A DNA stretch of 64,000 nucleotides from Rhodobacterales bacterium HKCCE2091. Its GTDB lineage: Bacteria > Pseudomonadota > Alphaproteobacteria > Rhodobacterales > Rhodobacteraceae. Below, one piece after another: positions 53,940 through 60,088 of this stretch. Below the pieces are notes generated by a model. That model was not told where the DNA came from and searched no databases. It saw only the letters and a program-made list of their open reading frames with translations. The stretch spans positions 1 through 64,000 of the forward strand of contig WVSL01000021.1 in assembly GCA_015689685.1 (NCBI GenBank), given 5' to 3'. How positions within the stretch are numbered: the first letter of the stretch is position 1; each line of letters starts with the position of its first letter. Position numbers and translations under genes: made by a program.

Positions 53940-54500
53940 ATGGCCAGCGACCAGCAGCAACGCGCGCTGATGAGCGCCATTGCCGGAGGCGACAAGCAGG
54001 CGCTCGCCGCGCTCTACCGGGCGCTGGAAAAGCCCGTGTTCCGCTTCATCCGATCCCGTTTGAACGATCCCTTCGAGGCCGGCGACATACTCCACGACGT
54101 GTTCATGGAAGTCTGGCGATCCGCCGGACGGTTCGAAGGAAGATCGAAAGTGCAGACCTGGATATTCGGCATCGCCTACCGCAAGGTCATCGACGCCCAT
54201 CGCCGACGCGGGCGGATGGACGTGACCGATGAATTTCCCGACACCCCCGACGACAGCCCCGACGCCGTCGCCTGCCTCGCCTCGGCCGAGGAGGCCGAGC
54301 ACGTGCGCCACTGTCTCGGCAAGCTCAAGGACGACCATCGCGCGGCCATCTCGATGGCGTTCTACGACGACATGACCTACGCCGAGATCGCCGAGGTCGC
54401 GGGCGTGCCGGAAGGCACGGTCAAGACGCGGGTGTTCCACGCCAAGAAATTGCTGATGCACTGCTTGGAGGGCCTGATGGGCCGGAGGGTGCCGGCATGA
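53940..54500 (+). CDS. ECF RNA polymerase sigma factor
   Basis: This 186-residue sigma factor has region 2 (FEAGDILHDVFMEVWRSAGR, then VQTWIFGIAYRKVIDAHRRR) and region 4 (ISMAFYDDMTYAEIAEVAGV, PEGTVKTRVFHAKKLL). It begins ASDQQQRALMSAIAGGDKQA. It is probably held by the membrane anti-sigma factor encoded next (4-bp overlap). The downstream exported protein genes are likely regulon members. A weak ECF-type motif lies upstream. Confidence 0.93.
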   Translation: MASDQQQRALMSAIAGGDKQALAALYRALEKPVFRFIRSRLNDPFEAGDILHDVFMEVWRSAGRFEGRSKVQTWIFGIAYRKVIDAHRRRGRMDVTDEFPDTPDDSPDAVACLASAEEAEHVRHCLGKLKDDHRAAISMAFYDDMTYAEIAEVAGVPEGTVKTRVFHAKKLLMHCLEGLMGRRVPA

Positions 54501-55117
54501 CCCGTACCGAGATCGAGGAACTGCTGCCGTTCCTGGCCAACGACACGCTCGACGGGCCGGAACGGGCCGAGGTGGAGGCCGCCGTGGCCTCCGACGCCGC
54601 GCTCGCTGCCGAACTCGCCGCGCTGAAAGCGATCCGCACGCGGATGCAGGCCGAGGAGGCGGAGGCCAGCCCCGGCGAACTGGGCCTCGCCCGGCTCATG
54701 CGCGACATCGACCGCGAAAGCGCCGAAACCGGCCCCGTCGCGGCGACACCGCCCGCCAACGTCGTGCCGATCTCGCGCCTGCGGATCTGGCAGGTCGCCG
54801 CGGCGGTCGTCCTCGCCCTCGCGCTCGGCCAGGCGCTGCTGGTGCCGGGCGCGGACCAGACCCAGGGCGGCGATTTCGGGCTTGCCAGCGGCGACGGCCC
54901 CGACGCCGCCTTCCGCGTGATCTTCGCGCCGGGGGTGACAGAGGCCGAGATGCGGGGGATCATCCTCGACGCCGGCCTGGAGATCGTCGGCGGTCCCTCG
55001 GCGCTCGGGTTCTACGACCTCGCGCCGCTGGACGGCGAGGCCGGGATGGATGCCGCGCGGACGGCGCTCGATGCCGCCGGACCGCTGATCGAGACGATCG
55101 AGGAGACGCAGGACTGA
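54497..55117 (+). CDS. Membrane anti-sigma factor with possible protease-propeptide-like periplasmic domain
   Basis: This 206-residue protein has a cytoplasmic N-terminus (1-~95; LLPFLANDTLDGPERAEVEA) with no HxxxCxxC zinc motif. One membrane helix (about 97-115; IWQVAAAVVLALALGQALLV) leads to a periplasmic domain of ~90 residues. That domain (FRVIFAPGVTEAEMRGIILD to AAGPLIETIEE) follows a beta-alpha-beta-beta-alpha-beta pattern like subtilisin propeptides. It is translationally coupled to the sigma gene and 19 bp upstream of an S8 protease gene. It would sequester the sigma factor until a periplasmic signal arrives. Confidence 0.8.
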   Translation: MTRTEIEELLPFLANDTLDGPERAEVEAAVASDAALAAELAALKAIRTRMQAEEAEASPGELGLARLMRDIDRESAETGPVAATPPANVVPISRLRIWQVAAAVVLALALGQALLVPGADQTQGGDFGLASGDGPDAAFRVIFAPGVTEAEMRGIILDAGLEIVGGPSALGFYDLAPLDGEAGMDAARTALDAAGPLIETIEETQD

Positions 55118-55136
55118 CCCCGAAGGGAGGCCCCGG

Positions 55137-56357
55137 ATGTCGTATCTGAAACCGAAGATCCTCGCGCTGGCGGTGCTGGCCGGCCTGATGGCGCTGCCGC
55201 ATCTCGCGGCGGCGCAGGGAGTTCCGGGCAACAGCAACAATACCCGCGTGACGACCGTGGACCGGGACGAACCGCGCGAGCCGATGCGCGGGCGCGACCG
55301 CGTGACCGCCCCGAGCGGCCGGGCCGAGGTCGTGGTGATGAGCCCGCCCGGGCAGTCTCAGGCGGTGATCGACACGCTTTCCGCGGCGGGGGCGCAGCTC
55401 GTCCGGTACCGCGACTACCCGAACCTGTCGCGGCGGGGGCATTTCTTCGACTTCCCGCGCGGTCTCGACGTGGACGAGGCGCGGCTGCTGCTCGCCGGTC
55501 CCGCGCCGGGCGCGGTGGTCTCGATCCATGTCATCTACCGCTATGCCCAAGGCGGTCCGCGGGTCTACGCGGCGGAACTGGTCGGCATCACGAACATCAG
55601 CGCCTGCCGCGCCGGCGGGGCCGTGGTCGGCATCATCGACGGGCCGGTGAACCCGGGCCACCCGGCGCTGGCCGGGGCCTCGGTCCGGGTCGAGAGCGTG
55701 CTCAGCGACGGCGACAGCCCGGTCGGCCCCGATCACGGCACCGCCGTCGCGGCGCTGATCGCCGGACAGGACGGGTCCGGGGCGCTGGCCGGCTTCGCGG
55801 GCGGCGCGCGGCTTTTCGCGGTAACTGCCTTCGCGCGGGAAAACGGCGACGAGGGCGCCGATACCGAACGCGTCACCGCCGCGCTCGACCGGCTGATCGG
55901 GCAGGGCGTGCGGCTGGTGAACATGTCCTTCGCGGGTCCGCCGAACGCGGTGATGGAGGATATCCTGTCCGCGGCAGCGGGCCGGGGCGCGGTGATGATC
56001 GCGGCGGCGGGGAACGACGGGCAACGCTTCGCGGCCTATCCCGCGGGGTCCCCGAACGTGATCGCCGTCACCGCGGTAGATGCCGGGCTGAACCTCTATC
56101 GCCGGGCGAACACCGGCTCTCATATCGAGTTCGCGGCCCCCGGCGTCGATGTCTTCGTCGCCTCGTCGGGCGGCGGGCGCTACCAGTCCGGCACCTCCTA
56201 CGCCGCGCCGATCGTGACCGCGATTGCGGCGCGGCTCGCCCCGGGCGGCTCGCTGTCGACGGTGCGGGCCCGGCTCCAGAGCGCGTCGCAGGATCTCGGC
56301 AACCCGGGCCGGGACGGGCAGTTCGGATGGGGTCTCGTCCACGCCCCCGGCTGCTGA
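55137..56357 (+). CDS. Exported S8 (subtilisin-like) serine protease
   Basis: This 406-residue protein has a Sec signal peptide (1-~26, ending AAAQG). The propeptide-like region (about 62-140) runs from EVVVMSPPGQSQAVIDTLSA to VVSIHVIY. The catalytic domain has Asp168 (VVGIIDGPV), His200 (DHGTAVAALIAG), oxyanion Asn293 (AAAGNDG) and Ser354 (SGTSYAAPIVTA). All triad residues are present. It should act in the periplasm or be secreted. It follows the sigma/anti-sigma pair by 19 bp. Its position and shared propeptide-like fold suggest a functional link to the anti-sigma factor. Confidence 0.9.
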   Translation: MSYLKPKILALAVLAGLMALPHLAAAQGVPGNSNNTRVTTVDRDEPREPMRGRDRVTAPSGRAEVVVMSPPGQSQAVIDTLSAAGAQLVRYRDYPNLSRRGHFFDFPRGLDVDEARLLLAGPAPGAVVSIHVIYRYAQGGPRVYAAELVGITNISACRAGGAVVGIIDGPVNPGHPALAGASVRVESVLSDGDSPVGPDHGTAVAALIAGQDGSGALAGFAGGARLFAVTAFARENGDEGADTERVTAALDRLIGQGVRLVNMSFAGPPNAVMEDILSAAAGRGAVMIAAAGNDGQRFAAYPAGSPNVIAVTAVDAGLNLYRRANTGSHIEFAAPGVDVFVASSGGGRYQSGTSYAAPIVTAIAARLAPGGSLSTVRARLQSASQDLGNPGRDGQFGWGLVHAPGC

Positions 56358-56370
56358 CGGTCCTCACCCC

Positions 56371-56404
56371 GATGTTTCCGCCGGAAATTTCCGACGGAAA
56401 CATC
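56371..56404. repeat. 34-bp near-perfect palindrome made of two TTTCC-N3-GGAAA units
   Basis: TTTCCGCCGGAAA (56375-56387) is followed immediately by TTTCCGACGGAAA (56388-56400), flanked by GATG and CATC. The whole 34 nt equals its own reverse complement at 32 of 34 positions. It lies 14 bp after the protease stop codon. Confidence 0.8.
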
Positions 56405-56436: not shown

Positions 56437-56463
56437 GTTTCCAGTGGAAATTCCACCGGAAAC
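56437..56463. repeat. Second pair of TTTCC-N3-GGAAA units
   Basis: TTTCCAGTGGAAA (56438-56450) is followed by TTCCACCGGAAA (56451-56462), again head to tail, flanked by G and C. Same motif as at 56371 and 60076. Confidence 0.75.
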
Positions 56464-56599
56464 TGAACCGGGCGGCGCCCTGCCGCGACCCATGATCGTA
56501 CAGGCGGCCGGGGGGCTTGTCCCTCCTCCCGGCCAGGCCTACGGCGGCGGGTCTTCCCCCGGACCCGCCGCGACCCCCGGGCCGCCCCCCGGCCCGGAT

Positions 56600-56633
56600 G
56601 CCCGCCCCGAATGTTCCGGGGCGGGCCTTTTTC
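56600..56633 (+). terminator. Rho-independent terminator
   Basis: A 10-bp perfect stem GCCCGCCCCG/CGGGGCGGGC with a 7-nt loop (56610-56616) is followed by CTTTTTCCTT. It stops transcription from the sigma/anti-sigma/protease operon before the small exported protein gene. The 401-bp gap 56358-56758 holds only this, the two palindromes and a GC-rich spacer with no supportable gene. Confidence 0.85.
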
Positions 56634-56758
56634 CTTCACAATAACGGTCACTTGAACCCGGATGTTGAACCGCCCGGTGCGGCCGCCCGACCCACAGTCA
56701 CGACCGCCAGCGCGGGTAATCCCGTCGGCGGCATCGCTGCCAAACCGGAGTGACCGAC

Positions 56759-57079
56759 ATGACCCGCCTGATCCTTCCCGCCGCGCTCGCCGCGCTTCTT
56801 TCCGCCCAGGCCGCCGCGGCCGACCCAGCCGCGGGCGCCGCCTGCGCCGCGCAGGTCAATGCCCATTGCACCGCCGCGGGCATATCCGAACCCGGCCTCT
56901 GCCTCGCCGCCGGTCTCACCGCCTGCGAGCGCATGGGCGGCGGGGCCGGCCCAGCGGGCGACCTGCTCGCGACCGTCGCGGTGTCGCGGCTCCTGCAGGA
57001 GCTCTTCACCGCCAGCGCGCCCGAGGCGCCCGAGGCCCCGGTTCTGCCGCCGCCTCCGGTCCTGCCCGAAGGGGTCTGA
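56759..57079 (+). CDS. Small exported protein of unknown function
   Basis: This 106-residue protein has a signal peptide (1-~21: MTRLILPAALAALLSAQAAA) and a short mature part. It carries four cysteines (ACAAQVNAHC, then LCLAAGLTAC) and a proline-rich C-terminus. The Cys spacing suggests two disulfides. ATG 56759 is favoured over a GTG 9 bp upstream because CGGAG lies 8 nt before it. It is not recognised. It precedes two other exported-protein genes downstream of the ECF locus. Confidence 0.6.
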   Translation: MTRLILPAALAALLSAQAAAADPAAGAACAAQVNAHCTAAGISEPGLCLAAGLTACERMGGGAGPAGDLLATVAVSRLLQELFTASAPEAPEAPVLPPPPVLPEGV

Positions 57080-60075: not shown

Positions 60076-60088
60076 TTTCCAGTGGAAA
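60076..60088. repeat. Single TTTCC-AGT-GGAAA palindrome
   Basis: Identical to the unit at 56438-56450, and followed by CATCGAGCTG; the 56388 unit is followed by CATCGTGCTT, so some flanking sequence is also shared. It lies 22 bp after the FGE-like stop codon. Confidence 0.7.

Follow-up and report, generated by a model that had tools for sequence, protein, structure and literature searches.

Why a membrane-bound anti-sigma factor carries, outside the cytoplasmic membrane, a domain that looks like the propeptide of the protease encoded next to it is the question raised by this locus. The window (the whole analyzed stretch of 64,000 nucleotides from Rhodobacterales bacterium HKCCE2091) contains three consecutive genes in the order ECF sigma factor, anti-sigma factor, and S8 subtilase precursor. 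Only a minority of ECF sigma factors have a known signal. In this module, the sensor domain points to its own partner, as it is a mimic of a protease propeptide that lies beside the protease. If the mechanism proposed below is true, it would be a new way of coupling a protease to transcription, and it would predict a ligand for a module that was found in 11-18% of sampled genomes from two proteobacterial orders. A literature search of partial coverage returned no description of either the mechanism or the pairing; the 2021 ECF re-classification may note the pairing.

The sigma gene (53940..54500, +) encodes a 186-aa protein with matches to Sigma70_r2 (6e-15) and Sigma70_r4_2 (1e-14), and its stop shares four bases (ATGA) with the start of the anti-sigma gene (54497..55117, +; 206 aa). 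Matches of the anti-sigma factor to the NCBIfam anti-sigma family NF052375 (5.5e-11) and to zf-HC2 (0.0046) both fall under the families' own cut-offs, and the assignment also draws on a hydrophobic segment and on the sigma gene that adjoins it in relatives. The protein has the build of a membrane-bound ECF anti-sigma factor, with an N-terminal anti-sigma domain, one transmembrane segment predicted from the sequence at about residues 99-116 (54791..54844, +), a periplasmic domain, and a sigma factor as neighbor.

The protease gene (55137..56357, +) encodes a 406-aa precursor that matches Peptidase_S8 (1.6e-31) and was modeled with a pLDDT of 93.9. The initial annotation had placed the anti-sigma factor and the protease together at 54497-56357, and correctly so. 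With its S8 fold, D-H-S triad, and propeptide of its own, the protease is an S8 subtilase. A signal peptide is predicted at residues 1-26 (55137..55214, +), likewise by reading the sequence, and the propeptide spans about residues 62-137 (55320..55547, +), as judged by AlphaFold2 strands and helices at residues 65-130, PF22148 matches in relatives, profile-profile comparison, and PDB comparison. The catalytic residues Asp168 (55638..55640, +), His200 (55734..55736, +), and Ser354 (56196..56198, +) are each kept in 47/47 neighboring proteases, and an intact triad throughout argues that protease activity is under selection.

The anti-sigma domain and subtilase propeptides

The initial annotation had read a common beta-alpha-beta-beta-alpha-beta plan in the periplasmic domain of the anti-sigma factor and in the propeptide of the protease, and it had named structure prediction of both domains as a check. 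The C-terminal domain of the anti-sigma factor was modeled with AlphaFold2 from an alignment that included 55 relatives (model residue i is protein residue i+125). The model, in which the core has a pLDDT of 93-96, gave strands and helices at E14-18, H24-33, E36-40, E48-52, H55-72, and E73-78, which is the beta-alpha-beta-beta-alpha-beta order. The AlphaFold2 model of the protease propeptide (residue i is protein residue i+54) gave E11-15, H17-29, E33-40, E45-51, H58-65, and E73-76, and in the model of the native protease (pTM 0.91), the propeptide had a pLDDT of 93-98. Thus, both predictions give the same topology at high pLDDT, at residues 136-204 of the anti-sigma factor and 65-136 of the protease, and the plan read earlier is borne out.

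Structural comparison placed the anti-sigma domain nearest to propeptides. The best PDB rows, 3whi, 1spb_P, 1scj_B, and 3cnq_P (Z 7.6-7.8), are propeptides of subtilisin E and BPN', and next came POIA1 (Z 7.0-7.1) with the Tk-subtilisin propeptide near. Many other ferredoxin-like proteins score Z 6-7.5 against the domain, and because the fold is ferredoxin-like and unrelated proteins score similarly, a Z below 8 is not decisive by itself. The protease model could be superposed over its whole length, propeptide and C terminus included, on pro-Tk-subtilisin (Z 38.8, 328 residues) and on pro-subtilisin E.

Sequence comparison pointed the same way. The fervidolysin N-terminal prodomain, PF22148, was the sole Pfam family to match more than one of the 55 anti-sigma domains: it matched 21/55 at E<=0.5 (best, 1.5e-6), and two full-length anti-sigma relatives that were tested passed its curated cut-off (27.0 and 24.7 versus 21 bits). 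PF22148 was also the top family for the propeptides of neighboring proteases, of which 7/48 matched. The window's own anti-sigma domain and protease propeptide had no Pfam match by themselves, and PF05922 (I9 inhibitor) had none in the whole genome or among the 55 anti-sigma domains. When the profile of the anti-sigma domain was aligned with that of the neighboring propeptides by hhalign, the match was colinear over 61-63 columns with a probability of 64-78% and a score of 26-30. Controls with reversed profiles, 100 column permutations, catalytic-domain windows, and the anti-sigma N terminus reached at most a score of 15 and a probability of 2.8%. Against PDB chain sequences, the anti-sigma domain profile had no match below E 0.1, and the best match of the propeptide profile was a 97-aa subtilisin-like protease chain (0.049). 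The evidence from PF22148 and hhalign adds to the likeness in fold, and homology of the periplasmic domain of the anti-sigma factor to subtilase propeptides is well supported.

The homolog, which spans residues 136-206 (54902..55114, +) as supported by AlphaFold2, PDB, PF22148, and profile-profile comparison, is without the inhibitory tail. In subtilase zymogens, the C-terminal tail of the propeptide occupies the S4-S1 pockets. The last residue of the window's anti-sigma factor aligns structurally with residue 73 of a 77-residue prosegment, and thus the P4-P1 part that fills S4-S1 is absent. Across the 55 relatives, a median of 2 residues follow strand 4, and just 8 have at least 8. I9-type inhibitors end in a C-terminal tail that reaches S4-S1, and the anti-sigma domain does not. 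Moreover, zymogen propeptides are N-terminal with an S8 domain in the same chain, as is the protease's own propeptide, whereas the anti-sigma domain is the C-terminal end of its protein. The domain therefore has the same beta-alpha-beta-beta-alpha-beta fold as the subtilisin BPN' propeptide, POIA1 (PF05922), and the fervidolysin prodomain (PF22148, which matches many relatives), but it differs from propeptides and I9 inhibitors in its place at the end of an anti-sigma factor, with neither a catalytic domain after it nor an active-site tail. The initial annotation had supposed that the anti-sigma factor could bind the protease active site, and because the domain stops before the S4-S1 tail in most of the 55 relatives, that part of the proposal loses its support in the product-like sense. 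The tail raises affinity and inhibition, yet some subtilases can do without it (PMC10580911, PMC6993865), and so docking alone may still inhibit in trans, even if weakly.

Two further regions of the anti-sigma factor may bear on docking. In the beta2-beta3 hairpin (G-P-S-A-L-G), the turn position L170 is L in 23 and I in 7 of 50 relatives, and the SUB1 propeptide and SUB1-ProM bear a hydrophobic plug at the corresponding turn (PMC6993865). Helix-capping acidic positions of the domain are kept in part only. Between membrane and domain, about 7 residues before strand 1, lies a linker motif, A-[ST]-G, which is A130-S131-G132 in the window (54884..54892, +) and which we propose as the region of cleavage. 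Relatives conserve A in 33/53, S or T in 33/53, and G in 31/53, and no such motif was seen by eye in the inspected anti-sigma factors that lack the propeptide-like domain. In a ferredoxin-like fold, the strand order is 4-1-3-2, so that strand 1 begins next to where strand 4 ends; the linker that precedes strand 1 would thus come close to the cleft into which the absent tail would have reached.

Pairing of the domain with an S8 gene

Relatives of the anti-sigma factor were found in 18/149 genomes of the same family, with sigma and S8 genes adjoining nearly always. When 292 genomes of the same order and 200 of another were then searched with just the C-terminal domain, 60 loci were found, and an S8 gene was adjacent in 59/60, the exception ending at a contig border. 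Anti-sigma loci without the domain had an S8 gene near in 3/34, each divergent from sigma. The difference is significant by Fisher test (3e-20), a value that is overstated because the relatives are not phylogenetically independent. The near-constant adjacency of look-alike domain and subtilase suggests that genes are turned on when the subtilase reads or cuts this imitation of its own cap. The anti-sigma domain is not a simple replacement for a lost propeptide, however, as all 60 distinct aligned protease N termini bear a propeptide-like segment of their own. The propeptide plan of the anti-sigma domain and its homology have good support, as does its link to the neighboring protease.

In a mirror-tree comparison, sigma and catalytic-domain distances agreed (r 0.82), but once the sigma background was accounted for, the anti-sigma domain showed no coupling to the catalytic domain (partial r 0.075), and docking therefore gains no support from distance-based co-evolution.

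Layouts vary. In 96 loci, the genes run in line as sigma, anti-sigma, and S8; in 12, the middle gene, that of the anti-sigma factor, has the opposite orientation, and a few loci are arranged otherwise. Inverted loci include L011, L013, L015, L016, L020, L022, and L052, and the module motif described below often precedes the anti-sigma gene in them. By a simple pattern, the protease has a lipobox in 8/12 inverted loci, and those proteases would thus be membrane anchored. In other classes, examined with wider flanks, S8 was present in nearly all loci, the exceptions being L079, L088, L089, and L093. In L079 (4953-6985, -), the gene after an anti-sigma relative with the propeptide-like domain encodes a caspase-type peptidase (PF00656, 1.8e-39) rather than S8. 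No S8 gene was found in about 12 kb of flanks in L088, L089, and L093, and L088 (5414-6701, -) has two tandem anti-sigma-like genes with the propeptide-like domain and no S8 within about 5 kb. Finally, L038, L179, and L181 represent a second S8-linked ECF layout, in which S8 is divergent from sigma and the anti-sigma factor has no propeptide-like domain.

How the subtilase might release sigma

How domain and protease would act on sigma can be framed as a self-contained extracytoplasmic module, a reading that we favor tentatively and at somewhat less than an even chance: the subtilase would dock on its tail-less propeptide homolog and cut the linker, and sigma would be released. The mature subtilase, its own cis propeptide removed, would dock on the anti-sigma domain by means of its propeptide-binding surface, and docking would bring the juxtamembrane linker to the catalytic cleft for site-1 cleavage. 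An RseP-type protease would then finish the anti-sigma factor and free sigma. The cis propeptide, which would use the same protease surface, may gate the reaction. The signal would run from protease to sigma, and the freed sigma would drive genes for exported proteins; in many relatives, its targets would also include the module. Docking and linker cleavage are favored because of the missing tail, the strand geometry, the conserved linker motif, and an M50 (RseP-family) protease encoded in the genome (8.6e-64). The module as a whole is further supported by the propeptide-like fold and homology, the pairing with S8, the conserved triad, the cis propeptides of the proteases, and the shared promoter motif. 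Binding in trans has a precedent in SUB1-ProM, an inhibitor that resembles a propeptide but stands alone and is encoded next to subtilases (PMC6993865), and according to the title of PDB 3a3n, the Tk-propeptide minus two C-terminal residues still forms a complex. In a wider form, to which we give about the same chance, sigma would read the level of mature, propeptide-free periplasmic protease through the tail-less mimic, a maturation sensor made from a copy of the protease's cap and used in Alpha- and Gammaproteobacteria. The proposal in the initial annotation that protease action or titration triggers sigma release is a sound hypothesis.

Several observations count against docking and cleavage. 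Besides the lack of coupling between domain and catalytic domain, L079 pairs the domain with a caspase-type peptidase, and no S8 gene lies within about 12 kb in L088, L089, and L093. The missing tail could mean that the domain no longer docks in a propeptide-like manner, the helix-capping acidic positions are incompletely kept, and DegS-like site-1 proteases may do the cutting instead. Were the domain a membrane-tethered inhibitor or titration sensor that keeps the mature subtilase docked and restrained at the inner membrane, occupancy or displacement, not cutting, would alter the grip on sigma. Such a sensor would make sense of a fold that is the same as in I9-type inhibitors and propeptides, and of the hydrophobic L170 at the turn where propeptides bear their plug; moreover, stand-alone propeptide-like inhibitors exist (PMC6993865), and in cucumisin and PfSUB1, inhibition does not require the tail (PMC10580911). 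We nonetheless consider such a sensor unlikely, as most relatives lack the part responsible for tight, product-like inhibition, a single-pass anti-sigma factor offers no obvious route to relay occupancy without proteolysis, and proteolysis switches most known membrane anti-sigma factors (PMC8103513).

Alternatively, a propeptide fold might have been reused for another job, such as dimerization or ligand sensing, with S8 adjacent merely as a target of sigma. Homology to the propeptide of the very protease class that adjoins it in 59/60 loci would then be coincidence, and the absence of the domain from the anti-sigma factors of other S8-linked loci also makes reuse rather improbable, even though ferredoxin-like folds are widely reused and unrelated proteins also reach Z <8. 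In Sinorhizobium meliloti, RpoE6 activates the serine protease SMa0142 (PMC6180224), and 3 of our loci have motif sites ahead of S8, both as expected of a sigma target; the caspase-type locus and the lack of an added co-evolution signal fit as well. Least probable by far is a trans-acting folding chaperone of the subtilase, by which sigma status would report protease maturation. Subtilase propeptides are indeed folding chaperones (PMC10580911), but each distinct protease examined has a cis propeptide segment, and a second foldase thus seems unneeded.

The docking and cleavage model combines features of known systems. Like the domain here, SUB1-ProM of Plasmodium is a propeptide-like domain encoded beside subtilase genes and separate from its presumed partner protease, but it is a soluble inhibitor with a tail, without fusion to a transmembrane anti-sigma factor and without a transcriptional role (PMC6993865). 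The RseA/DegS/RseP system of Escherichia coli sigma-E shares the ECF sigma, the single-pass anti-sigma factor, the RseP-family protease, and a periplasmic serine protease. DegS, however, is of the HtrA type and senses OMP peptides by its PDZ domain, and RseA has no propeptide-like domain, its site-1 protease not being co-encoded with a matching domain (PMC8103513). In the ECF26 system RpoE6-EcfR6/SMa0142 of S. meliloti, an ECF sigma, an anti-sigma factor, and a serine protease adjoin as they do here and the protease is a sigma target, but the layout is divergent and the promoter is of the GGAAT type (PMC6180224). It is this system that L038, L179, and L181 resemble in arrangement, and their anti-sigma factors are the ones without the propeptide-like domain. 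Finally, RsiV of Bacillus subtilis sigma-V resembles the model in that an anti-sigma ectodomain is an enzyme receptor and proteolysis is triggered; the enzyme, lysozyme, is an external muramidase and not a co-encoded protease, and the ectodomain is a different one (PMC4183432).

A promoter motif and candidate targets

What the sigma factor might transcribe is suggested by a motif, TGAACC-N16-CGAC (CGAACC in one group), which occurs with exact spacing 44-67 nt before sigma in 23/79 loci, all outside the window's family. Within the window's family, the motif lies just downstream of S8 in 10 loci, the window included, and 13 sites stand ahead of the anti-sigma gene or of S8, for the most part where the anti-sigma gene is inverted. 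The motif is not upstream of sigma in the window. Instead, a module-type site, TGAACC-N16-CGACC, lies downstream of the protease (56464..56490, +), and a second, TTGAACC-N16-CGACC (56665..56692, +), lies 66 nt before the next gene. That gene (56759..57079, +) encodes a small exported protein of 106 aa with no Pfam family, likely a sigma target given the site upstream.

Position is what ties TTGAACC-N16-CGACC to the sigma of the module, which would read it. The extended motif has 7 sites in the genome (L203-L209) versus 0 for a reversed control, and 6/7 are followed within 30-75 nt by a gene whose product is exported; two RTX repeat proteins are among these products, as are secreted proteins encoded in tandem pairs. 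None of 24 TGAACC sites without the preceding T has a gene with a Sec signal behind it, though the test for signal peptides was a crude one and many of the 24 seem to lie in coding sequence. From the motif, an initial set of exported proteins can be proposed as a candidate regulon.

Two features downstream of the protease gene deserve mention. About 110 nt past the motif at 56464 comes a strong intrinsic terminator-like site (56600..56632, +), and together these would bound a short transcript, possibly an RNA of ~135 nt that contains CCTCCTCCC; window 56464-56632 had no convincing Rfam match. In addition, the repeat element TTTCCNNNGGAAA is present in four copies (56375-56400, 56438-56450, and 60076-60088; expected, 0.01), both 3' of the protease gene and around the 60-kb position.
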